Positions 32,971 through 46,475 of a DNA stretch of 64,000 nt are shown here, piece by piece. The notes beneath the pieces were generated by a model. It worked only from the letters and a program-made list of their open reading frames with translations. It was not told where the DNA came from and did no database searches. A program made the position numbers and the translations under genes. Positions within the stretch are counted from its first letter, which is position 1; each line of letters opens with the position of its first letter. Source of the DNA: Kaistia dalseonensis (GTDB taxonomy: Bacteria > Pseudomonadota > Alphaproteobacteria > Rhizobiales > Kaistiaceae); NCBI RefSeq assembly GCF_030814715.1, contig NZ_JAUSVO010000008.1:124001-188000 (forward strand). The letters are read 5' to 3'.

Positions 32971-33023
32971 GGGTCTCGTTGTCCGGATCTTCTTGCGATG
33001 ATGCAGGTGAGGAGACGACCAAT

Positions 33024-34553
33024 ATGCCTGAAATCGCCATCAGCCTCGTCGGCATCGAGAAGAGCTTCGGCAGCGCCAAGATTCTGAACGGCATCACGCT
33101 CGATTTTCGCCGTGGCTCGGTCCACGCGCTGATCGGCGAGAACGGTGCCGGCAAGTCGAGCCTCGGCAAGATCATCGGCGGCTATTATTCGTTCGATGCC
33201 GGGACGCTCACCGTCTTCGGCAAGCCCGTTGGCCACTGGACGCCCCGCGCCGCGCTCCAGGGCGGCATCGCCATGATCCATCAGGAACTCCAGCTCGTGC
33301 CGGAGCTGACCGTCGCGCAGAATGTGTTTCTCGGCATCGAGGATAATAGCGCGGGCGTGCTGCGCGGCTCCGAGGCTGCACGCTTTCGCGCCCTCGACGA
33401 GAAATGCGGCTTCGGCCTGAAGCCGGGCACGATCGTCGCCGATCTCCGCATCGCCGAGCGGCAGAAGGTCGAGATCATGCGCGCCATCGCGCGCGATTCC
33501 CGCGTCATCATCATGGACGAGCCCACGTCCTCGCTCACGGCCGACGAGGCGGAGAAGCTGCACCACGTCATCCGCTGGCTGCGCGATGATGGCCGCACGG
33601 TCATCTATGTCACCCACTTCCTCGATCATGTGCTCGCGACCGCGGATCGCGTTACGATCATGCGCGACGGCCGTATCGTGCGCAGCGGCGATATTGCCGG
33701 CGAAACCAAGGCGAGCCTGGTCGAGGCAATGCTTGGCGAACCTGCCGACGTCGCTTTCCCGCCGCTTCCCGCGCCTCCGGCTCTCTCGGTCGCACCAATT
33801 CTCGAAATCAGCCATCTTTCCAGCGATACCGGCCTGCAGGACGTCTCGCTCGACATAAGGCCGGGCGAGATCGTGGGTCTGATCGGCCTCGTCGGCAGTG
33901 GGCGGAGCGAGCTCGCACGCGCCATATTCGGCGCTGATCCGGCCACGGGCGCGGTCAAGGTGGCCGGCGCTCCCTATGACGATCGCAGCCCGCGCCGTTC
34001 CGTCGCGCGTGGCATTGGCTTCGTACCAGAAGACCGGCGCAAGCAGGGCCTCGACCTGGTCCAGATGGTGCGCCCGAACATGTCGCTGCCGCACCTCGCC
34101 CTCGTCTCTCGCTTCGGTGTGCTGCGCCCGAAGGAGGAGCGGCGGCGCACGGCCGAGATGATCCGCCATTTCAACATCGTGCCGGGCCAGATCGACGGCG
34201 AAGTCGCGTTCTATTCCGGCGGCAACCAGCAGAAGGTGCTGCTGTCGAAATGGGTCTATGGCAATCCGAAGATCGTCATCCTCGACGAACCGAGCCGTGG
34301 CGTCGATATCGGGGCTCGCCGCCGCATCCATGATTTCGTCGTGGAGCTCGCCAGGGGCGGCGCGGCGGTGCTGCTGATCTCGTCCGAACTCGAGGAAGTC
34401 ATCAGCCTCTCGCATCGCGGCTATCTGATGAGTGAGGGCCGCATTGTCGGCACCGCCGATTGCCGCACGCTGACCGTGGAAGATGCGCTCTTCCGCCTCT
34501 TCAACATAGACCGAAGCGCCGGCGACACCGCGCGCGCGGGAGCCACATCATGA
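33024..34553 (+). CDS. Ribose-type ABC transporter ATPase, two nucleotide-binding domains
   Basis: A 509-residue fused ATPase of the RbsA/MglA class. The first domain has Walker A GENGAGKSS, a divergent signature LRIAERQKVEI and Walker B VIIMDEPTSSL. The second lacks a proper Walker A (GLVGSGRSE) but has the signature YSGGNQQKVLLSKW and Walker B IVILDEPSRGVDIGAR, as normal for this class. GGTGAGGAGACG precedes ATG 33024. The stop overlaps the permease start by four bases. Confidence 0.94.
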   Translation: MPEIAISLVGIEKSFGSAKILNGITLDFRRGSVHALIGENGAGKSSLGKIIGGYYSFDAGTLTVFGKPVGHWTPRAALQGGIAMIHQELQLVPELTVAQNVFLGIEDNSAGVLRGSEAARFRALDEKCGFGLKPGTIVADLRIAERQKVEIMRAIARDSRVIIMDEPTSSLTADEAEKLHHVIRWLRDDGRTVIYVTHFLDHVLATADRVTIMRDGRIVRSGDIAGETKASLVEAMLGEPADVAFPPLPAPPALSVAPILEISHLSSDTGLQDVSLDIRPGEIVGLIGLVGSGRSELARAIFGADPATGAVKVAGAPYDDRSPRRSVARGIGFVPEDRRKQGLDLVQMVRPNMSLPHLALVSRFGVLRPKEERRRTAEMIRHFNIVPGQIDGEVAFYSGGNQQKVLLSKWVYGNPKIVILDEPSRGVDIGARRRIHDFVVELARGGAAVLLISSELEEVISLSHRGYLMSEGRIVGTADCRTLTVEDALFRLFNIDRSAGDTARAGATS

Positions 34554-35533
34554 CCGAGACTTCTTCCGTGACCCGCACCGGCGCGACCTCCACCGTTCCC
34601 GCCGGCAGGCGCCTGCTCGCGATCCTGCAGAAATACGGCATCCTCATCATCATTGCGCTTTTGATGATCGGGCTGACCGCCTTGTCGGATTCGTTCCTGA
34701 CGCAGCGCAACCTGCTCAACATACTGAACCAGAGCGCCCCGCTCGCGATCATCGCCTGCGCACTCACACTCGTGATCATCGGCGGCGGGTTCGATCTCTC
34801 GGCCGGCGCGGTCTTCGGCGTCGCCAGCGTCTCGGCCGCCTGGCTCGCGGTCAATGTCGATCCCACGCTCGGTATCATCGCGGGGCCGTTCATCGGCCTG
34901 GTGCTCGGCATCGTCAACGGCCTGATCATCACCGGCTTCAACGTCCATTCATTCCTCGCGACCCTGGCGAGCAGCATGGTGTTCCGCGGCATTGCCGTGC
35001 TCATCACGGGCGGCTCGCTCATTCCCGTCCGCATGGAGGCATTCGCCTGGCTCGGCCGCGGCCGTATCGGCATCGTCAACATCGCCGTCATCGTCTTCCT
35101 CGTCTTTGCGGCGGCGATGATGTTCCTCCTGAACCGCACGACCTTCGGCCGGCGCGTCTTCGCCGTCGGCGGCAATGAAGAGGCGGCGATCCTCTCCGGC
35201 GTGCGCACCAAGCTGGTCAAGATAGCGACCTTCGGCCTGACGGGTTTCGCAGCCGGCCTTGCCGGCGTCATTTCGGTCTCACGCATCTCGATGGGCCAGC
35301 CGCAGGCCGGCCTTGGCATGGAACTGGACGCGATCGCCGCGGTGATCCTGGGCGGCACGTCGATCTATGGCGGCAAGGGCGCAATCTGGCGCTCGATCGC
35401 CGGCGTCCTGCTCCTCGCCCTGATCGGCAACGGTTTCAACATCCTGAACGTGAACCCGTTCTTCAAGGACCTGACCACCGGCCTGATCATCGTCGTCGCC
35501 GTAGCCCTCAGCGCCGGCCGAAAGCGGCGCTGA
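34550..35533 (+). CDS. Ribose-type ABC transporter permease
   Basis: A 327-residue inner-membrane permease of the RbsC family with 8-10 TM segments. Family motifs include the GGGFDLSAGAVFG region, GRRVFAVGGNEEAAILSG and ILGGTSIYGGKGA. It is the last gene of the GAF-hyuAB-amidohydrolase-importer operon; one permease gene implies a homodimer. Confidence 0.93.
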   Translation: MTETSSVTRTGATSTVPAGRRLLAILQKYGILIIIALLMIGLTALSDSFLTQRNLLNILNQSAPLAIIACALTLVIIGGGFDLSAGAVFGVASVSAAWLAVNVDPTLGIIAGPFIGLVLGIVNGLIITGFNVHSFLATLASSMVFRGIAVLITGGSLIPVRMEAFAWLGRGRIGIVNIAVIVFLVFAAAMMFLLNRTTFGRRVFAVGGNEEAAILSGVRTKLVKIATFGLTGFAAGLAGVISVSRISMGQPQAGLGMELDAIAAVILGGTSIYGGKGAIWRSIAGVLLLALIGNGFNILNVNPFFKDLTTGLIIVVAVALSAGRKRR

Positions 35534-36104: not shown

Positions 36105-37088
<984 letters not shown>

Positions 37089-37145
37089 TCACATCGAACC
37101 AATGTCGATTGGCTTCGAATTTTTTTGTTTTTGGAGATTTGCACA

Positions 37146-37224
37146 TCAAACGCTGAGCGTCAATTTCAAACGCTTTCGATTTCTATCGTTTTTCTTGGCC
37201 GATGCAGTGTTTCGTCCTTATTCG
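37146..37224. promoter_or_regulatory. Candidate DeoR operator region upstream of the binding-protein gene
   Basis: On the minus strand CGA triplets lie in two pairs with 10-bp spacing (TCG on the plus strand at 37176/37186 and 37212/37222). The 20-bp element at 37171-37190 (minus-strand reading AACGATAG-AA-ATCGAAAGCG) matches 17 of 20 bases at 41604-41623. A direct repeat TCAAACGCT also occurs at 37146 and 37166, two helical turns apart. Confidence 0.6.
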
Positions 37225-38094
37225 CTATGAAGCGATGATGACGTCGATGCCCAGGCGCTCGAATTGCAGTCGATCCTCGTCGCGAATGCCTTCGTCGGTG
37301 ATGAACGTCTGCACCATGTCGAGCTTGCCGAGCGAGGAGAAGGAAACGGCGCCGATCTTGGTGCTGTCGGCCACCACATAGACCTTGGAGGCAGCCTTGA
37401 TCATGGCGCGCTTGATATGCATGTCGGCAAGGCTCGGATAGGTCAGCCCGGCCTCGAACGAGATACCGGCGGTGGCGAGGAAGAGCTTGCCGGCAAAGAT
37501 GTCCTGGAAGAAATCGCCCGACTTCTCGCCGCTGAGCGAGAGCGTCGGTGCCTTGAACTGCCCGCCGGGCATATGGACGGAAAAGGACGGCACGGCACCC
37601 AGCATCAGCGCGATGTTGAGGCCGTTGGTGATGACGGTCAGGTCCTGTCGCGTGACGAGATTCGAAGCGATTTCCGTCGTCGTCGAGCCGGCATCGAGGA
37701 TGATGGTTTCGCCGTTTCCGACAAGGGCGGCGGCGGCGCGGCCTATCTTGCGCTTCGCGTCCATGTTGACGAGGTGCTGCAGCGCCATGGCCTGGACCTG
37801 GCGCGGCACCGATTTCAGATAGGCGCCGCCATGCTCGCGCACGATGTGGCCTTCCGAATCGAGGCGCTCGAGGTCCTGCCGGATCGTCGCCTCGGAGACG
37901 CTGAAAGCCTGGCTCAGATCCTTGACCCGGGCGCTGCCTTCTTCCTGCAGCCAGGCGAGGATGCGCATGCGTCGTGGTTCGGCGAGCAGACCGCTGAGCG
38001 GACTCGGGGCGGCTTCAGCCTCGTCGCTCTCGGGCTTCGCTGCCTGCTTGATCCGCTTTCTGCTCGACGAGCGGGCCCCGGCACTGTGCTGCAT
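37225..38094 (-). CDS. DeoR family transcriptional regulator of the sugar locus
   Basis: A 289-residue DeoR/GlpR-type repressor. The HTH (MRILAWLQEEGSARVKDLSQ, FSVSEATIRQDLERLDSEG) is followed by the sugar-phosphate sensor domain with KRKIGRAAAALVGNGETIIL, the DAGSTTTEIA phosphate-binding motif, TNGLNIALML and VVADSTKIG. The family normally releases DNA on binding a phosphorylated sugar. ATG 38094 has GGGGAT before it; 38106 and a GTG at 38157 (overlapping the permease) are alternatives. It probably binds the repeat arrays at 37.2 and 41.6 kb. Confidence 0.9.
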   Translation of the reverse strand: MQHSAGARSSSRKRIKQAAKPESDEAEAAPSPLSGLLAEPRRMRILAWLQEEGSARVKDLSQAFSVSEATIRQDLERLDSEGHIVREHGGAYLKSVPRQVQAMALQHLVNMDAKRKIGRAAAALVGNGETIILDAGSTTTEIASNLVTRQDLTVITNGLNIALMLGAVPSFSVHMPGGQFKAPTLSLSGEKSGDFFQDIFAGKLFLATAGISFEAGLTYPSLADMHIKRAMIKAASKVYVVADSTKIGAVSFSSLGKLDMVQTFITDEGIRDEDRLQFERLGIDVIIAS

Positions 38095-38140
38095 CAATAT
38101 CCCCATATCGGAGTTGGCGGCGACGATCTCGCGCCAGTCG

Positions 38141-39193
38141 CTACTCCAGTCGGGCACGCCGCGACAGGGTTCGCTGCATCTGGTCGAGGACGACCGCCGA
38201 AACGATCACAAGTCCTTTTATGACCATTTGCCAGAATTCGCTAACACCCATCATCACCAGTCCGTCGCTGAGCACCCCGATCACGAAGGCACCGACAATG
38301 GTGCCGCCGATCGTGCCGCGTCCGCCGGAAAGGGATGTGCCGCCGAGGACCGCGGCTGCGATCGCGTTCAATTCGAAGCTCTCGCCGCTCGCCGGATGCG
38401 AGGCGACGAGCTGCGAGGAGACGATGAGGCCGGCGATCGCCGCGCAGAAGCCCGATATGACATAGACCGCGAGCTTGACGCGGTTGACATAGACGCCCGA
38501 GAGCGCCGCCGCCCGCTCATTGCCGCCAACGGCATAGACGCGGCGCCCGAATGGCGTGCGCGCGGCGACATAGGCCGCGATCAGTGCGACCACCACGAGG
38601 ATGACGATCGAGAGCGGAATGCCGAAGAGTGTTCCGGCGCCAAGGATCGGGAAGCCTTCATTGCCGAGTTCGGGCTTGCCGACGAGATTGGGGAAGGTGG
38701 CGCCGTTGGAAAGCAGCAGCGCCGCGCCGCGCGCCACATAGAGCGTGCCCAGCGTGGCGATGAAGGGGGCAACGTTGAGCTGCGTGATCAGGACCCCGTT
38801 GAAGGCGCCGATGATGGCGCCGACCACCAGCACGATCGCCATTGTTTCCAGTACGTTAGGCCAGACCACCACGCCGAGGAAGGGGAGGGGAATGCCATAG
38901 GTGATGAGCGCGCCGGCGATCATGCCGGTCAGCCCCACGATCGAGCCGACTGACAGATCGATGCCGCCCGTCAGGATGACATAGGTCATGCCGATGGCGA
39001 GCAGCGCATTGATCGCGACATGCTTGGAGACGATGACGAGGTTGGCGACCGACATGAAGTTCGGTGCCATCAGGCCGAAAAAGGCGACGACCAGGGCAAG
39101 GGCGATAAAGGTGCGGAGCCTGAGGATGAGCAGGAGCGTCGTCGACGGCCCATTGCGATGTGCGACGTCGCGGATGGCGGCGTGGTCAACCAT
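38141..39193 (-). CDS. Sugar ABC transporter permease, RbsC-like
   Basis: A 350-residue permease with 8-10 TM segments; family motifs are LTGGIDLSVGSIVGL, GRRVYAVGGNERAAALSG and VLGGTSLSGGRGTIGG. The start at 39193 overlaps the ATPase stop, so translation is coupled. With the ATPase gene and the RbsB-like protein it makes a complete importer for the sugar degraded by the divergent operon. Confidence 0.93.
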   Translation of the reverse strand: MVDHAAIRDVAHRNGPSTTLLLILRLRTFIALALVVAFFGLMAPNFMSVANLVIVSKHVAINALLAIGMTYVILTGGIDLSVGSIVGLTGMIAGALITYGIPLPFLGVVVWPNVLETMAIVLVVGAIIGAFNGVLITQLNVAPFIATLGTLYVARGAALLLSNGATFPNLVGKPELGNEGFPILGAGTLFGIPLSIVILVVVALIAAYVAARTPFGRRVYAVGGNERAAALSGVYVNRVKLAVYVISGFCAAIAGLIVSSQLVASHPASGESFELNAIAAAVLGGTSLSGGRGTIGGTIVGAFVIGVLSDGLVMMGVSEFWQMVIKGLVIVSAVVLDQMQRTLSRRARLE

Positions 39194-40751
39194 GATGGGA
39201 TCCCTTGCTGGTCGATGCGTTGTTCGCATGCGCTGTGTGGCCGACCACCGAAGCGGAGACGAGAAGCTCGTCCGTGGCGTCGTTGCTGCTGGCGTCGAGC
39301 GTGATCCGCCCGGATGACATCACCAGAATCCGGTCGGCGATGGCGACTTCCTTCAGATCCGACGTCGCGAAGATGATGCCGAGGCCCTGTTCGGCCAGTT
39401 CGCGCATGACGCGGAAGATCTCGGCCTTGGCGCCGATGTCGATGCCGCGGCTCGGTTCGTCGAGCAGCAACACCTTGGGCGAGGTCATCAAACTCTTGCC
39501 GATGACGACCTTCTGCTGGTTGCCGCCGGAGAGCGAGGTGATCATCGTATGGGGCGAGGGCGCCTTGACCTGAAGCTCACGCGAGATTCGCGCGACCTCG
39601 TCGCCCTCCCGGGCGGTGGTGATCCGGCCGAAACGGGTGAAGCGGCCAAGGCTCGAAAGGCTCATATTGCGGCCGACCGAGAGGTTCTGGACCAGCCCGT
39701 CGCGCTGACGGTCCTCCGGCGTCAGGAACAGGCCTTTGGCGATGCGCTGGTTGATCGAAAGGCCTGAAATGTCGAGGCCGTCGAGCACGATGGTCCCGCT
39801 CGCATCGGGCCGCGCGCCGAACAGGCATTCGAAGAGCTCGGATCGCCCGGCACCCAAAAGCCCATAGATACCAACGATTTCGCCGGCATGAATCGAGAGC
39901 GAGACATGATCGACGGTCATGCCGCCGCCGATGCGCGGCAGGCAGACATCCTCGATCCTGAGGATTTCTCGGCCCGCCCGGGCCTGCACGGGGCGCCGGG
40001 CCGCGAGTTCCGAGGTGCCGAGCATCTGGCGGATGATCCAGGAGACGTCGATCTCGTCCATGCGGGCGGAAGCCTGCAGTCGTCCGTCGCGCAGAACCGT
40101 GACGAAATCGCCAATCCGGACCAGCTCTTCCAGCCGGTGCGAGATATAGACGATGGCGACACCGGAGCGTTTCAGTTCATCGATGACGCGGAACAGCACC
40201 TCGACTTCGGAAACGCTCAGCGCCGAGGTCGGTTCATCCATGATCAGGATGCGGACATCTTCCGATAGCGCCTTGGCAATCTCGACGATCTGCTGCTGGC
40301 CGATGCGCAGGTCGCCGACCTTGGTGTCCGGGTCGAGGTCATGTTCCAGCCGCTGCAGCAATGCGCGCGCCCGGCTCCTCTGGCGCGCCAGGTCGAGATG
40401 GAAGCCGCCGCGCGTCAGCGGATGGCCGAGAAAGATGTTCTCGGCGATGCTCAAATTCGGGCAGAGATTCAGTTCCTGGAAGACGATGCCGATGCCCTTC
40501 GAGGCAGCATCGCGCACGGACGCGAAAGTAACCTCGCGTCCCTCCATGACGATCCGCCCGGACGTGGGGCGCTCTACGCCCGAGAGGATCTTCATCAATG
40601 TGGATTTTCCGGCGCCGTTCTCGCCGATCAGCACGTTGACCGCATTGGGATAGACGTGGAAATCGACATCGGCGAGCGCTGTCGTGCCGGGGAATATCTT
40701 GGAGATCTTTTCGGCGCTCAGGATCGGTGCGACGGAATCCGGTACGGTCAT
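39186..40751 (-). CDS. Sugar ABC transporter ATPase, two nucleotide-binding domains
   Basis: A 521-residue RbsA/MglA-class ATPase. Domain 1: Walker A GENGAGKST, signature LRIGQQQIVEI, Walker B ILIMDEPTSAL. Domain 2: degenerate Walker A GLLGAGRSE, signature LSGGNQQKVVIG, Walker B VLLLDEPSRGIDIGAK. Its start overlaps the stop of the DUF2291 gene by four bases. Order in the operon is DUF2291, ATPase, permease, DeoR, then the binding protein. Confidence 0.94.
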   Translation of the reverse strand: MTVPDSVAPILSAEKISKIFPGTTALADVDFHVYPNAVNVLIGENGAGKSTLMKILSGVERPTSGRIVMEGREVTFASVRDAASKGIGIVFQELNLCPNLSIAENIFLGHPLTRGGFHLDLARQRSRARALLQRLEHDLDPDTKVGDLRIGQQQIVEIAKALSEDVRILIMDEPTSALSVSEVEVLFRVIDELKRSGVAIVYISHRLEELVRIGDFVTVLRDGRLQASARMDEIDVSWIIRQMLGTSELAARRPVQARAGREILRIEDVCLPRIGGGMTVDHVSLSIHAGEIVGIYGLLGAGRSELFECLFGARPDASGTIVLDGLDISGLSINQRIAKGLFLTPEDRQRDGLVQNLSVGRNMSLSSLGRFTRFGRITTAREGDEVARISRELQVKAPSPHTMITSLSGGNQQKVVIGKSLMTSPKVLLLDEPSRGIDIGAKAEIFRVMRELAEQGLGIIFATSDLKEVAIADRILVMSSGRITLDASSNDATDELLVSASVVGHTAHANNASTSKGSHHG

Positions 40752-41425
40752 TGGCCCGCTCCGGCGACGGCGATGGGCATGACGAGGAGAGCGTCGTCGG
40801 GCTTGTTGAGCGTGATGGCGCCGGTGAAGGTCACGTTCGCGCCTTCGACAAGCGCCCCGAAACCGGGCTTGGCGGTCGCCAGGGCGGCCTCGTTCAGCGC
40901 GCGGCCCGCCTGCGCATATTCGATCTGGTTGGTGAATTTGCCGAAGCTCGCATCGGGCAGATTATCGCGAATGGCATTGCCCTTGACGATAGGTCCCGTC
41001 TGCAATGTTGCCTCGCGGTTGCCTTTCGGCGTCGCGATGGAGAGCGTGGCGGTTCCCGCGCGGGAGGCGGTGTCGACCTTCGTGACCCGACCCTCGCCCT
41101 TGACGACGAACGCCGTCGGCGAACCTTCACCAGCGGCCTTCAGGCCGTATTTCTGACCGGCCGTATCGAAGCTCTCGTCGAGCGCCGGCAGGAGCGTCGC
41201 GAGATCGACGGCCCGGCCGAGCAGTTCCTGGTGGCCCTTCGACGTCCAGAGCGTGTCGGCGAAGTTCTTCGCGTCGAATTTCTGGGCCTTCGCGCTCGCC
41301 TTTTCAGCCTCGGTCTGGATCGGCAGGATCTTGCAGCCGGAAAGGCCGCCCGTGGCGATCAGGGCCACGACGATCAGGGCGCGGGGCAGGGTACACGGCC
41401 TCGACGGCCGCGACAGATACGACAT
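40748..41425 (-). CDS. DUF2291 family lipoprotein
   Basis: A 225-residue predicted lipoprotein: a hydrophobic signal segment ends in the lipobox LSGC with Cys31 as the lipidated residue. The rest fits DUF2291, a family repeatedly found beside ribose-type importers in rhizobial sugar and polyol loci. It may help the importer at the membrane, but its role is not established. ATG 41425 follows GGGAGGAGGAAGA. Confidence 0.82.
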   Translation of the reverse strand: MSYLSRPSRPCTLPRALIVVALIATGGLSGCKILPIQTEAEKASAKAQKFDAKNFADTLWTSKGHQELLGRAVDLATLLPALDESFDTAGQKYGLKAAGEGSPTAFVVKGEGRVTKVDTASRAGTATLSIATPKGNREATLQTGPIVKGNAIRDNLPDASFGKFTNQIEYAQAGRALNEAALATAKPGFGALVEGANVTFTGAITLNKPDDALLVMPIAVAGAGQ

Positions 41426-41575
41426 TCTTCCTCCTCCCAACCACCCTTCCTCAAAGGCGGCGCGCAAGCCGTTTTCGGCAATTGCCTTTTATTTTCGTTT
41501 CATTTTGGATGGCACGGCCTCGCCGGGCATGTCAATCGGCCCTGCCGCTGATTCCGTGGTGCGAGTGTCGATATT

Positions 41576-41623
41576 CGAGATAATACGAAAGAAAACGAGA
41601 AATAACGATAGTGATCGATAGCG
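41576..41623. promoter_or_regulatory. Five-fold 10-bp repeat array, candidate DeoR operator
   Basis: CGA occurs at 41576, 41586, 41596, 41606 and 41616, exactly one helical turn apart, mostly followed by an A/G/T-A pattern (CGAGA, CGAAA, CGAGA, CGATA, CGATA). The array is in the 277-bp gap between the divergent DUF2291 and isomerase operons. Its last part (41604-41623) is 17/20 identical to the element upstream of the binding-protein gene. Confidence 0.65.
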
Positions 41624-41702
41624 ACGGCCGGCGTGCGGTGCTATAGAGCGGGTATCGAGCGGCGACGTCGAAGCGCCGGCTAGACGGAAGGGGAGGTTCG
41701 GG

Positions 41703-43169
41703 ATGGGATCGAGGTTTCGTGCAAAGGTGACGCTGGGCCTGGTCATCGGGTCGCGCGCGTTCTTCAACGGCGCACCGTGCAAGGCGGCGCGCGACGAACT
41801 GACGGCGCAGCTCGATGCGCTCGGCATCGACTATTGCATCCCGCCTTTCGAGGCGACCGTGAACGGCGCCGTCCAGTCGCGCGAGGATGCGCGCCTCTAT
41901 GCCGAGTTCTTCCGCGAGAAACGCGACGTGCTCGACGGGCTGGTGATCTGCCTGCCGAATTTCGGCGACGAGATCGCGGTGGCCGAACTCGTCAACATGA
42001 CGCGGCTCAACCTGCCGATCCTGCTCCAGGCCAGCAATGACGAAACCGACAAGGTCGACGTCAAGAGCCGGCGCGACGCCTTCTGTGGCAAGCTGTCGGT
42101 GACGAATAATTTCTACCAGTACGACGTCGCCTTCACCGACACGACCAGCCACACCTCCGATGTCTGGGGCGAGGAATTCCGTGGCGATCTCGATCGCTTC
42201 GCCAGGACCTGCCGCACCGTTCGTGGCCTCCGCAACGCCCGCATCGGCGCGATCGGCGCCCGCACCGGCGCGTTCCAGACCATGCGCTTCAGCGAGAAGC
42301 TGCTTCAATCGTCCGGCATCACGGTCGTGACCGTCGATCTCTCGGAGATCATGGGCAGCGCGCGGGCGATCGGTGACGACGCGCCCGACGTGAAGGCCAA
42401 GCTCGACGACATCTTCGCCTATGGCACGATTCCCGGTCATATCGACCGCGCCAACATCATGAAGCAGGCCAAGTGGTCGATCGCCGTCGATCGCTGGATC
42501 GACGAGAACGAATGCGATGCCTCCTCGATCCAGTGCTGGCGCAGCCTGCAGGACAATTATGGCTGCGCGACCTGCCTGACCATGAGCATGCTGAGCGAGA
42601 AGCTGATGCCGAGCGCGTGCGAGGTCGACGTCATGGGCGCGATCTCGATGTATGCGCTGGCGCTCGCCTCCGGCGCTCCGCCGGCCATCCTCGACTGGAA
42701 CAATAATTACGGTTACGAGGCCGACAAATGCGTCTGCACGCATTGCGGCAATTTCCCAAAGAGCTTCATCGGCGACCGTCCCGAAATCTCCGAGCTCGAC
42801 GTGCTCGGCGAGACGATCGGCCGTGAAAAGTGCTTCGGCGCCGTCAAGGGCAAGGTCAGGGCCGGCCCGATGACCTTCTTCCGCGTCTCGACGGATGATC
42901 GGCGCGGGACGATCAAGGCCTATGTCGGCGAGGGCGCCTTCACGGATGATCCGTTCCCGATGGATGGCGGCATCGCGGTGACCGAGGTGCCGCGGCTTCG
43001 CGATCTCATGGGCTTCGTGGCGCGCAACGGCTTCGAGCATCACGTCGCGATGGTGCGCGGCGAGCATGCAGCGATCGTGACCGAGGCGATCGACCGCTAT
43101 CTCGGCTGGCCGATCTATCGCCATGAGGCGGCGCCGCGCTTCTCCGGCGCCCAGCCCTTCTTCCGATAA
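41703..43169 (+). CDS. L-fucose/L-arabinose isomerase-fold sugar isomerase
   Basis: A 488-residue enzyme of the FucI/AraA superfamily, which converts aldoses to ketoses with a divalent metal. The expected metal ligands can be placed: Glu307 in ACEVDVMGA, Asp331 in ILDWNNN and His446/447 in FEHHVAMVRG. It also has a Cys-rich patch KCVCTHCGNF. GGGGAGG lies 7 bases before ATG 41703. It heads an operon with a split transketolase and a kinase, so it probably performs the first intracellular step on the imported sugar. It is not close enough to classical FucI or AraA to name the substrate. Confidence 0.88.
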   Translation: MGSRFRAKVTLGLVIGSRAFFNGAPCKAARDELTAQLDALGIDYCIPPFEATVNGAVQSREDARLYAEFFREKRDVLDGLVICLPNFGDEIAVAELVNMTRLNLPILLQASNDETDKVDVKSRRDAFCGKLSVTNNFYQYDVAFTDTTSHTSDVWGEEFRGDLDRFARTCRTVRGLRNARIGAIGARTGAFQTMRFSEKLLQSSGITVVTVDLSEIMGSARAIGDDAPDVKAKLDDIFAYGTIPGHIDRANIMKQAKWSIAVDRWIDENECDASSIQCWRSLQDNYGCATCLTMSMLSEKLMPSACEVDVMGAISMYALALASGAPPAILDWNNNYGYEADKCVCTHCGNFPKSFIGDRPEISELDVLGETIGREKCFGAVKGKVRAGPMTFFRVSTDDRRGTIKAYVGEGAFTDDPFPMDGGIAVTEVPRLRDLMGFVARNGFEHHVAMVRGEHAAIVTEAIDRYLGWPIYRHEAAPRFSGAQPFFR

Positions 43170-43201
43170 GGCCCCAACCTTCGTTGAACTGGAACGCGAT
43201 C

Positions 43202-44041
43202 ATGCTCGAAAAGATCAGTCAGACATCCGATGAGCGGATTGCCGCCATCCGCGAGAAGGCGCGCATCATCCGCCGACGCGCGATCCAGATGGTGTTCGAC
43301 GCCAAGCAGGGCCATCCGGGCGGCGACATGTCGGTGACCGATATTCTGGCGACGCTCTATTTCGGCGTGCTGCGCTATGATCCGGCCCAGCCCGACGATC
43401 CCGCGCGCGATCGCTTCGTGCTCTCCAAGGGCCATTGCACCGGCGCGCTCTACGCGACCCTCGCCGAGGCCGGCTTCATCCCGCTCGACGAACTCGCGAC
43501 CTATATGCGCCCGCTCTCGATGCTGAACGGCCATCCGAACCGCAATTACGTGCCCGGCGTCGAGACCAATACAGGTCCGCTCGGCCATGGCATGCCGGTC
43601 GCGGTCGGCATGGCGATCGCCGGCCAGATCGACGGCTCGGACCGGCGCGTCTTCGTCGTCACGGGCGATGGCGAGCAGCAGGAAGGCAGCAATTGGGAGG
43701 CCGGCATGATCGCCGGCCACCGCCATCTCGCGCAATTGACCCTGATCATCGATCGCAACCACCTGCAGCAGGGCGCGCGGACCGACGAGACCAATGATCT
43801 CGAGCCGCTGGCCGACAAGTGGCGCGCCTTTGGCTGGCATGTAGTGGATGTCGACGGCCACGATCATGCGGCGCTGCTCGACGTGCTCGGCGCGCCGGTC
43901 GGCGACCGCGTGAAGCCGCTCTGCGTCATCGCCCATACCCACAAGGGCAACGGCATCTCCTACATGGTCGACCAGGTGCAGTGGCACCATGGCGTCCCCA
44001 ACCAGGAACAATATGAACTCGCCATGGAGGAACTCGCCTGA
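43202..44041 (+). CDS. Transketolase N-terminal subunit
   Basis: A 279-residue TPP-binding half of a split transketolase. The TPP motif GDGEQQEGSNWEA ends in the expected N, and FDAKQGHPGGDMS and LSKGHCTGALYATL are family landmarks. ATG 43202 follows GGAACG; TTG 43184 is an alternative. It must pair with the next gene to make an active enzyme that moves a two-carbon unit from a ketose phosphate. Confidence 0.93.
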   Translation: MLEKISQTSDERIAAIREKARIIRRRAIQMVFDAKQGHPGGDMSVTDILATLYFGVLRYDPAQPDDPARDRFVLSKGHCTGALYATLAEAGFIPLDELATYMRPLSMLNGHPNRNYVPGVETNTGPLGHGMPVAVGMAIAGQIDGSDRRVFVVTGDGEQQEGSNWEAGMIAGHRHLAQLTLIIDRNHLQQGARTDETNDLEPLADKWRAFGWHVVDVDGHDHAALLDVLGAPVGDRVKPLCVIAHTHKGNGISYMVDQVQWHHGVPNQEQYELAMEELA

Positions 44042-45006
44042 TGGCCGCCGCAGTCCAGAATGCCCCCGGCCTGCATGATTGCCGCGATGCCTTCGCGAAG
44101 ACGCTCGAAGCGCTCGCCGAGGCGGATGGCCGCATCGTCGCCGTCGTCAATGACAGCGTCGGCTCGTCGAAGCTCGGCGGCTTCAAGAAGCGCTGGCCCG
44201 AGCGGCTGGTCAATGTCGGCATCGCCGAACAGAACATGGTCGGCGTCGGCGCCGGTCTCGCCAATGGCGGCAAGGTGCCGTTCGTCTCGGGCGCGGCCTG
44301 CTTCCTGACCGGCCGTGCGCTGGAGCAGATCAAGGCCGATGTCGCCTATTCCAATACCAATGTGAAGCTCGCCGGCATCTCTTCGGGCGTCGCCTATGGC
44401 GAGTTGGGGCCGACGCATCATTCGATCGAGGATCTGGCCTGGCTTCGCCTGTTGCCGAACCTGACCATCGTCGTGCCCTCCGATCCATGGGAGACGGCCG
44501 AGGCGGTCAAGGCGGCGGTGGCGCATGAAGGGCCTGTCTTCCTGCGGCTGAGCCGCATGCCCGTTCCGGAGCTGAAGCGGCCGGAAGGCGCGCGCTTCCA
44601 GTTCGGCAAGGCCGAGGTGCTGCGGGCGGGAACGGATGCCGCGATCATCGCCAATGGCGTCATGGTCACGCGCGCGCTGGTCGCCGCCGAGGCGCTGGCG
44701 GAGGCCGGCATCGCCGCGCGGGTGATCAACCTGTCGTCGATCGCGCCGATCGATCGCGAGGTGATCCTCGCCGCGGCCGAGACCGGGGCGATCGTGACGA
44801 TCGAGGAGCATTCGATCCGTGGCGGCCTCGGCGGGGCCGTCGCCGAGATCGTCTCGACCACGCGCCCGGCCGCGATGCGCATTCTGGGCTTCCCCGGTTT
44901 CGCGCCGACCGGCTCGGCGGAGTTCCTGCTCGAGCATTTCGGCCTGACCTCGGAGGGAATCGTGCGCGCCGTGCATGAGGTCATCGCCATGCGGGACGGG
45001 CGATGA
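44041..45006 (+). CDS. Transketolase C-terminal subunit
   Basis: A 321-residue second half of transketolase: pyrimidine-binding domain with the catalytic glutamate in NVGIAEQNMVGVGAG and the C-terminal domain (IDREVILAAAETGAIVTIEEH). Stop and start overlap the neighbours by one base upstream and four bases downstream, so N subunit, C subunit and kinase are translated together. In D-apiose catabolism a split transketolase of this type acts on apulose 4-phosphate; that role is only a possibility here. Confidence 0.93.
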   Translation: MAAAVQNAPGLHDCRDAFAKTLEALAEADGRIVAVVNDSVGSSKLGGFKKRWPERLVNVGIAEQNMVGVGAGLANGGKVPFVSGAACFLTGRALEQIKADVAYSNTNVKLAGISSGVAYGELGPTHHSIEDLAWLRLLPNLTIVVPSDPWETAEAVKAAVAHEGPVFLRLSRMPVPELKRPEGARFQFGKAEVLRAGTDAAIIANGVMVTRALVAAEALAEAGIAARVINLSSIAPIDREVILAAAETGAIVTIEEHSIRGGLGGAVAEIVSTTRPAAMRILGFPGFAPTGSAEFLLEHFGLTSEGIVRAVHEVIAMRDGR

Positions 45007-46475
45007 GCGGCCACATCCTCGCGATCGACCAGGGGACGACCAACACCAAGGCGCTCCTGCTCGACGCCAGGGGCGCGATCGTCGCGCGGGCGTCGCGGGC
45101 CATGGTCGTTTCGCATCCAAAGGAAGGCTGGGCCGAGCAATCCGCCGAGGCGATCTGGCAGAGCGTCGCCGAATGCCTCTCGGACTGCATTGCGGCTGTG
45201 CCCGGCGCCGAGATCGCGGCCTTTGCGATCTCCAACCAGCGCGAATCCGTCGTGCTGTGGGAGCGCGAAACCGGCAGGCCAGTCGGCCCCTGCGTCACCT
45301 GGCAATGCATGCGCAGCGCCGAACGGCTCGATCGCCTGCGTTCGGCGGAGACCGAGGCGCTGGTCGCGGTGCTGAGCGGGCTCGCGCTCAATCCGATGTT
45401 CCCCGCCGCCAAGATCGGCTGGCTGCTCGACGCCACCCCCGGCGCACGGGCACGCGCCGAGCGAGGCGAACTCGCCGTCGGCACGATCGACAGCTGGCTG
45501 CTCTGGAATTTCACGGCCGGCGCCGTCCACGCCTGCGACGCCGGAAATGCGTCACGCACCCAGCTTTTCGATATCCATGCGCTGCGCTGGAGCGACCCGC
45601 TCGCGGCGCTGTTCGAAATTCCCGTCGCCATCCTGCCCGACGTGAAGGCGTCGGACAGTCGCTTCGGCGTCAGTGCCGCGCCGGACCTGCCCTCCGGCAT
45701 ACCGATCCATGCCATGATGGGTGACAGCCATGCCGCGCTTTATGGCCATGGCGTGCGCGGCCCGGGCATCGTCAAGGCGACCTACGGCACCGGCTCGTCG
45801 CTGATGACGCTGACCGAGCAGCCGGTGCTTTCGAAGAACGGGCTTTCGACGACGATCGCCTGGATGGCGGGCGGCCGGGTGCATCATGCGCTGGAGGGCA
45901 ATATCACGGTCTCCGGTCAGGCGGCGGCCTTCGTGGCGCGGCTGCTCGGGCTCGCGGATGCCGATGCGCTGACCGATCTCGCCCGCACGGTCCCGACCAG
46001 TGGCGGCGTCGTCGTTCTCCCCGCGTTGGCGGGCCTGGGCGCGCCCTATTGGCAGGCCCATGCGCGGGGCGCCATTTCCGGCCTCTCGCTCGGGAGCACG
46101 CCGGCCCATGTCGCGCGCGCCACGCTGGAGGCGATCACGCTGCAGGTGCGCGATGTCTTCGACGCGATGCAGATCGATCTCGGCATCGCGCTTTCCGCGC
46201 TTTCGGCCGATGGCGGCGCGGCGCGGAGCGATTTGCTGATGCAGCTTCAGGCCGATCTGCTCGACCGGCCGGTGCTGCGCGGGGCGGCCGTCGAACTCAG
46301 CGCCATCGGCGCCGCGATGATGGCCGGAGTGGCTGTCGGCCTCTATGCCGCGACGGAGGACGAAGGCGCGGCCGAGGAGGCCGTCCTGCGCTTCACGCCC
46401 GCCATGGAGCCGGCGCGTCGCGACGCGATCCTGTCGGGCTGGAGCAAGGCCGTCGCGACCGCGATCGGCGGATAG
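45003..46475 (+). CDS. FGGY family carbohydrate kinase
   Basis: A 490-residue ketose/polyol kinase of the glycerol-kinase branch. Motifs: ATP-binding AIDQGTTNTKALLLD, SNQRESVVLWER, GMIDSWLL-like GTIDSWLLWNF, KATYGTGSSLM and the late LSADGGAARSDLL. It should phosphorylate the ketose made by the isomerase before the transketolase acts. Closeness to glycerol kinase means glycerol or a short polyol cannot be excluded, but the operon context argues for a ketose. Confidence 0.92.
   Translation: MSGHILAIDQGTTNTKALLLDARGAIVARASRAMVVSHPKEGWAEQSAEAIWQSVAECLSDCIAAVPGAEIAAFAISNQRESVVLWERETGRPVGPCVTWQCMRSAERLDRLRSAETEALVAVLSGLALNPMFPAAKIGWLLDATPGARARAERGELAVGTIDSWLLWNFTAGAVHACDAGNASRTQLFDIHALRWSDPLAALFEIPVAILPDVKASDSRFGVSAAPDLPSGIPIHAMMGDSHAALYGHGVRGPGIVKATYGTGSSLMTLTEQPVLSKNGLSTTIAWMAGGRVHHALEGNITVSGQAAAFVARLLGLADADALTDLARTVPTSGGVVVLPALAGLGAPYWQAHARGAISGLSLGSTPAHVARATLEAITLQVRDVFDAMQIDLGIALSALSADGGAARSDLLMQLQADLLDRPVLRGAAVELSAIGAAMMAGVAVGLYAATEDEGAAEEAVLRFTPAMEPARRDAILSGWSKAVATAIGG

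Follow-up and report, generated by a model that had tools for sequence, protein, structure and literature searches.

A polar array of 10-bp direct repeats, putatively the operator of a local DeoR-family regulator, in a sugar isomerase locus of Kaistia dalseonensis

The window analysed here is a stretch of 64,000 bp from Kaistia dalseonensis, and it contains a sugar locus whose genes and putative regulatory sites are collected in Table 1. A transporter operon opens with the gene of a predicted DUF2291 lipoprotein (ATG at 41425, preceded by a GGAGGA ribosome-binding site as read from the sequence). It is divergent from an operon that begins with an L-fucose-isomerase-like sugar isomerase and goes on with a split transketolase and an FGGY sugar kinase. 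The gene of a DeoR-family regulator, for which an alternative GTG start lies at 38157, follows the transporter genes and is itself followed by the gene of a periplasmic sugar-binding protein (SBP). Adjoining the locus, open reading frame translations at 32979-35533 on the plus strand reveal an apparent second pair of sugar ABC ATPase and permease.

The SBP shares 79% identity with Rhizobium etli RHE_PF00037 (4ry0) and gives 480 bits to 5ibq, which we take to be the D-apiose complex of RHE_PF00037. A transketolase route for D-apiose exists, and the locus (36105-46475) may encode the uptake and the transketolase pathway of this branched pentose. For the isomerase, phmmer finds nothing in the PDB at E<=0.001, and its NCBIfam match, to sulfoquinovose isomerase, is weak (77 of 700 bits). 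No paper on a regulator of apiose genes was found in the literature search, most subscription journals lying outside its coverage.

Table 1. Genes and putative regulatory sites of the sugar locus (window positions).
Feature	Position	Strand	Remark
SBP, periplasmic sugar-binding protein, putative target gene	36105..37052	-	Peripla_BP_4
Binding-protein-side operator (putative), proximal cluster, three uneven units	37101..37130	-	about 50-80 bp upstream of SBP ATG
Binding-protein-side operator (putative), distal cluster, two units 10 bp apart	37172..37191	-	SBP sense
DeoR-family regulator (HTH_DeoR + DeoRC), proposed operator binder	37225..38094	-	Pfam PF08220, PF00455
ABC permease, putative target operon	38141..39229	-	BPD_transp_2
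ABC ATPase, putative target operon	39186..40751	-	ABC_tran, two stretches
DUF2291 predicted lipoprotein, first gene of transporter operon	40748..41425	-	PF10054
Single strong unit AAACGAAAAT, facing transporter (DUF2291) operon	41491..41500	-	66 bp upstream of DUF2291 ATG
Isomerase-side operator (putative), five in-register 10-bp units	41573..41622	+	isomerase sense
L-fucose-isomerase-like sugar isomerase, first gene of divergent operon	41703..43169	+	Fucose_iso_C
Transketolase N-terminal subunit	43184..44041	+	Transketolase_N
Transketolase C-terminal subunit	44041..45006	+	Transket_pyr, Transketolase_C
FGGY sugar kinase, glycerol-kinase branch	45003..46475	+	FGGY_N/FGGY_C; phmmer best to glycerol kinases

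The gap between the two divergent operons carries five CGA triplets that start at 41576, 41586, 41596, 41606 and 41616, i.e., at exact 10-bp spacing on the plus strand; an extra CGA at 41622 is out of phase with them. They belong to five successive units, ATTCGAGATA ATACGAAAGA AAACGAGAAA TAACGATAGT GATCGATAGC, lying 81-130 bp upstream of the isomerase ATG. A preliminary description had reported the exact period and the position between the divergent operons, and a position count with shuffles and the gene layout, respectively, bear out both statements. Its claim that the repeats are all on one DNA face holds approximately: the DNA helix has about 10.5 bp per turn, and a spacing of 10.0 bp gives a drift of about 70 degrees over the array. 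On the plus strand of the 64-kb window the array is the sole run of at least three CGA at period 10, and, read as TCG, the minus strand contains a single run of three. In 600 strand scans of Markov-shuffled sequence (300 windows, two motif orientations), a run of five never appeared and runs of at least four did so in 41; nor did five in a row turn up when the local gap was shuffled 20,000 times.

The preliminary description had also noted that a 20-bp part of the array, 41604-41623, is 17/20 identical to the reverse complement of 37171-37190, upstream of the SBP gene, where a pair of CGA again lies 10 bp apart. A recount confirmed the identity, which is that of the best 20-mer common to both gaps, and the pair was found as well. 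Taken alone, this likeness is modest evidence, since 3 of 1000 shuffled gap pairs, about 1 in 300, reach at least 17/20; the five-CGA array is strong evidence. That figure would be a point in favour of a chance or slippage-made short tandem repeat with no function. The units of the array, however, differ in sequence while keeping CGA and phase, such an array did not arise in the 20,000 local shuffles, and the array is conserved in close relatives, as described below. This last observation refutes the chance reading, whose probability we regard as negligible.

To follow conservation, the isomerase was searched for in its family (28 genomes), in a set of 397 genomes from the order that was taken out of a larger group, and in named genomes, of whose 100 relatives the best 80 were kept. 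Inventories of the genes at 121 loci reveal the same gene set in several arrangements. The window copies being left out, 72 isomerase relatives have at least 67% identity, and 56 of these loci have a DeoR match of at least 55%; the 56 were thinned by shared 8-mers to 36, which served as the training set for a motif. A de novo search of the regions upstream of these 36 non-redundant isomerases, the window excluded, gave the motif AATCGAAAGnAATCGAAA, a polar direct repeat of AATCGAAAGn with a 10-bp period. Its log-likelihood is 447 (150 restarts) as compared to 116-120 (60 restarts) for three shuffled sets. In a fourfold cross-validation, 30 of the 36 held-out loci score above every one of their 200 shuffles and 34 above 95% of them; two held-out loci, L091 and L047, fail.

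When the window is scanned with this motif (127,954 placements), the nine top placements start at 37168, 37107, 41583, 41573, 38226, 41603, 41593, 37158 and 41487. They score between 26.3 and 7.4, as compared to 2.5 for the placement that comes after them. Eight of the nine lie inside the two gaps, several being overlapping registers of one array; the ninth (38226) lies inside the permease coding region. The motif read backward scores 4.8 at best in the window, and a score of 15 is reached by none of the 241 other 260-bp chunks. A sequence model, R1, was built on 50 sites (alignment A1, 50 of 52 sites, without L010:163-198 and L018:3172-3207). In the genome of 5.18 Mb, with 150 of 261 first-look candidates scored, it gave three matches at E<=10, all in the two gaps, with E-values of 0.005, 0.016 and 0.11. 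When up to three mismatches are allowed, a simple pattern occurs at 11 places in the genome, of which seven are outside the locus, the best of them with two mismatches; its backward control has one place. The array is specific to the locus and has a polarity. The preliminary description had expected the local DeoR protein to act at both gaps, and this reading is supported: the same two gaps are picked out by a motif learned without the window and by a genome scan with no match elsewhere at E<=10 among the 150 of 261 candidates scored.

Within the isomerase-side array, the relatives' motif matches 41583-41606 and 41573-41596, R1 matches 41569-41599, and the five units score 9.4, 15.8, 11.8, 10.7 and 7.7. 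The strongest part by the relatives' motif is therefore 41573-41606, not the stretch 41604-41623 that had been singled out earlier. On the SBP side, 37168-37191 is the top motif match of the window (unit scores 16.4 and 15.1), and the distal cluster to which it belongs is the R1 match with the lowest genome E-value. The proximal cluster contains the second-best motif match, 37107-37130, with unit scores of 10.3, 5.9 and 14.7 and an R1 match at 37104-37134. The earlier list of sites was right about both gaps and missed this second SBP-side cluster. The lone unit at 41491-41500 ranks, at 16.8, as one of the window's top two unit placements and reaches only 7.6 bits (E 0.52) within the full model; it is a possible weak operator of the transporter operon.

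Within the 3' end of the permease coding sequence, ahead of the regulator gene, there is a further motif match at 38226-38249. It scores 14.8 by the motif and 4.0 bits (E 7.9) by the sequence model. The match may be an autoregulatory half-site; conservation of the coding sequence is the more likely explanation, and the site was left out of the operator parts.

In the 36 relatives, CGA-CGA spacing is concentrated at one and two periods, with 38 pairs at 10 bp (5.0 expected) and 19 at 20 bp (5.1 expected). Other distances between 3 and 42 bp have counts of 1 to 10, the highest, 10, being at 9, 31 and 32 bp. TCG-TCG spacing likewise peaks at 10 bp (21 vs. 3.2 expected), with 10 vs. 2.6 expected at 29 bp. 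Of the 35 matches before the isomerase (36 loci examined), 34 have the motif in the same sense as the gene; before the binding-protein gene this holds for 14 of 16 matches (25 examined). Among the 21 loci examined for DUF2291, no match lies less than 200 bp before the gene by the general count; several Pleomorphomonas loci (L078, L081, L082, L085-L087) have a strong match about 131 bp before it. Units that are A-rich and phased at 10 bp could also be thought of as intrinsically curved DNA with no specific protein. Phased A-tract curvature was tried as a class and rejected, for conservation is carried by C and G too: at the motif-chosen sites of A1 (columns 22-23) each of the two is retained in 49 of 50, on a par with the best A positions. 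The motif is moreover polar and goes with a regulator, and we consider curvature alone extremely improbable.

The link to the regulator was counted in those 36 loci whose isomerase has 6 kb or more of DNA before it and 5 kb or more after it. The motif was found upstream of the isomerase in 30 of 30 loci with a DeoR relative (scores of at least 18.8) and in two of six without one (L072 and L075); many of the 30 regulator-bearing loci had trained the motif and the six others had not. L047, which has the regulator and a score of 14.4, is outside this count owing to its too short flanking DNA. Scores of at most 4.6 were obtained for L052, L060 and L071, which have no pathway genes beside the isomerase, and for L076, which has the transporter and no transketolase, kinase or regulator in view. 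If the room filter is dropped, 54 of the 56 loci that have a DeoR match reach a score of 15 within 300 bp before the matched start. The two exceptions are L047 and L091, whose match starts inside the gene. Ten of 15 loci without a DeoR match in the flanking DNA examined also reach 15; most of these 15 loci are short stretches, and the regulator may lie outside. In close relatives, then, the motif is conserved with the locus and associated with the regulator.

A strict two-unit pattern was searched for in the 397 genomes and occurs in 18 of 24 genomes with the isomerase (not found in the other six) and in 28 of 373 without it, a Fisher P of about 4e-14 with relatedness ignored. Of its 61 places, 28 are within 6 kb of the isomerase and 33 are away from it. 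The latter are background, because the pattern read backward gives 38 places, none of them in the 24 isomerase genomes. These counts bear on the question of whether the repeats could be used by a regulator other than the local DeoR protein. Two more DeoR relatives, of 31-32% identity, are present in the K. dalseonensis genome, and L072 and L075 carry the motif with no DeoR match in the flanking DNA examined. Set against this are the tie of the motif to the local DeoR relative in close relatives, the genome scan with no match outside the locus (150 of 261 candidates scored), and off-isomerase places no more numerous than the control. Another regulator is thus very unlikely, and the local protein is the preferred candidate.

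Beyond these relatives, the analysis covered 13 distant loci that combine an isomerase of less than 67% identity with a DeoR match of 49-62% identity. The best motif score exceeds all 40 locus shuffles in five of them (L089, L101, L105, L114 and L117) and all but one of 40 in two (L113 and L121); the remaining six (L032, L033, L100, L103, L107 and L116) are indistinct from shuffles. In L114, the best match lies inside the kinase gene. L113 and L117, both Bacteroidota, carry pairs of TCGAAAG spaced by 10 bp immediately ahead of the regulator gene and on the opposite strand. Since about half of the 13 loci stand out, conservation beyond Alphaproteobacteria is partial. The preliminary description had asked whether the repeats are kept where the locus is kept: they are in close relatives, and in about half of the 13 distant loci the motif clearly stands out. 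Internal stops had been reported for some isomerase relatives, and ten distant loci were checked for recoding with no sign of it. In L039, L040 and L041, the stop is the normal end of a gene read past its C terminus, and the other seven have no stop in the tblastn-matched stretch.

The regulator has a DeoR-type winged helix-turn-helix at its N-terminus (PF08220, E 1.8e-15, above the gathering score), which is conserved, and a DeoRC sensor domain at its C-terminus (PF00455, E 2.2e-45). A structure model has a mean pLDDT of 80.9, and its best Foldseek match is E. coli DeoR (7l6l, about 177 residues). The closest NCBIfam family is AgaR, with 203 bits vs. a cut-off of 260, followed by SrlR (177/350), halobacterial GlpR (174/300) and UlaR (95/244). 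The protein scores under the curated cut-off of all 15 NCBIfam families listed and is therefore none of those named proteins by this test. It shares the two-domain architecture of the AgaR/SrlR/GlpR-type repressors, from which its scores set it apart.

The nearest described parallel is RhaR. PMC3870299 gives 10-11-bp direct repeats as predicted for four groups of this DeoR-family regulator, and reports that the Chloroflexus protein binds a 38-bp array of four TCGAAA in a gel shift and is released by L-rhamnulose. As in that account, the regulator here is a DeoR-family protein local to a sugar operon with direct repeats of 10-11 bp, and the Rhizobium case described there also has two divergent operons with an ABC transporter and an isomerase (PMC3870299). 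The K. dalseonensis repeats are imperfect direct repeats of that period. They stand before the likely operons of the regulator and are conserved together with them in close relatives, partially so in the 13 distant loci. The differences from the published case (PMC3870299) are another sugar locus and five units in place of the four of Chloroflexus. A second parallel, AxgR of Caldicellulosiruptor, has a tandem-repeat site of a local regulator before an ABC sugar transporter operon; the genes are others, and the text calls AxgR DeoR-family in one place and AraC-family in another (PMC8579813). Overall, the array looks like a RhaR-type operator for another regulator. Its unusual points are only the array length, the second cluster and the narrow regulon.

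Taken together, the repeats are very probably the operator of the local DeoR-family repressor, which would be bound head-to-tail and released by a sugar intermediate. Each 10-bp unit AATCGAAAGn is close to one helical turn and would hold a single recognition site (W-CGA-W-A) for one winged-helix domain; consecutive repressor subunits would thereby line up head-to-tail on roughly the same side of the DNA. The spacing of one unit per turn, together with the fixed polarity, is suggestive of such an arrangement of winged helices in an oligomer. UlaR and AgaR are cited as tetramers and DeoR as an octamer in PMC10991401. The five isomerase-side units and the two SBP-side clusters would allow cooperative binding of the oligomer, with both promoters blocked. 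A pathway intermediate taken up by the DeoRC domain would then release the repressor and switch on uptake and catabolism together. The array, its conservation in close relatives, its polarity, its restriction to the locus and its association with the regulator are shown directly; binding, repression and the inducer are inferred.

Sigma-70-like promoter scans recognised none in either gap. A laxer scan gave none in the isomerase direction and one weak candidate each in the DUF2291 and SBP directions (4 mismatches, 19-bp spacer), the latter overlapping the 37101-37130 cluster. With no promoter recognised in the window, repression by occlusion is an extrapolation here, and the same operator might serve activation, or activation and repression depending on position. 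An array 81-130 bp upstream of the isomerase ATG could conceivably lie upstream of a promoter, and the shared sense of operator and gene in 34 of 35 matches would suit an activator. The relatives, however, argue otherwise. At five Pleomorphomonas-type isomerase-side sites (L020, L024, L026, L031 and L083), the operator starts right after the -10 element that closes a TTGACA-17-CATC(A/G)T promoter. In L020, L024, L026 and L031, the spacer between -35 and -10 of a TTGACA-16-AATAAT promoter is overlapped by the other strong site. Most other relatives' sites have no or weak promoter matches. In C. bescii, PMC8579813 places the sites of all 12 LacI and DeoR regulators in 5' UTRs or over promoter elements and reads the proteins as repressors. 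Activation is accordingly unlikely, and repression remains the preferred reading.

A broader proposal is made tentatively. The sites may belong to a regulon not met in the papers searched, in which a DeoR-family repressor with the polar one-turn code AATCGAAAGn would control, across Alphaproteobacteria and some Bacteroidota, a branched-sugar (probably D-apiose) pathway of L-fucose-isomerase-like enzyme, split transketolase and FGGY kinase, the repeat number being tuned from two to five between genomes. By a fixed unit threshold, the array has five units here and at most four in the 36 relatives, where two loci have none, two have one, 18 have two, 13 have three and one has four. This natural series of two to five units, whose regulators share about 60-70% identity, would lend itself to testing head-to-tail cooperativity against unit number. 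More generally, a pattern seen by eye becomes a testable regulon with its operator code, target genes and regulator named, and an uncharacterised sugar pathway is tied together as one control unit.

The history of the locus deserves two minor remarks. The orphan isomerases L052, L060 and L071, 72-74% identical, stand within about 17 kb without an SBP, transketolase, kinase, DeoR match or operator, and only generic ATPase matches of 29-31% surround them. In its own genus, the isomerase is found in only one of 14 genomes; the locus is therefore patchy and may have been horizontally acquired.
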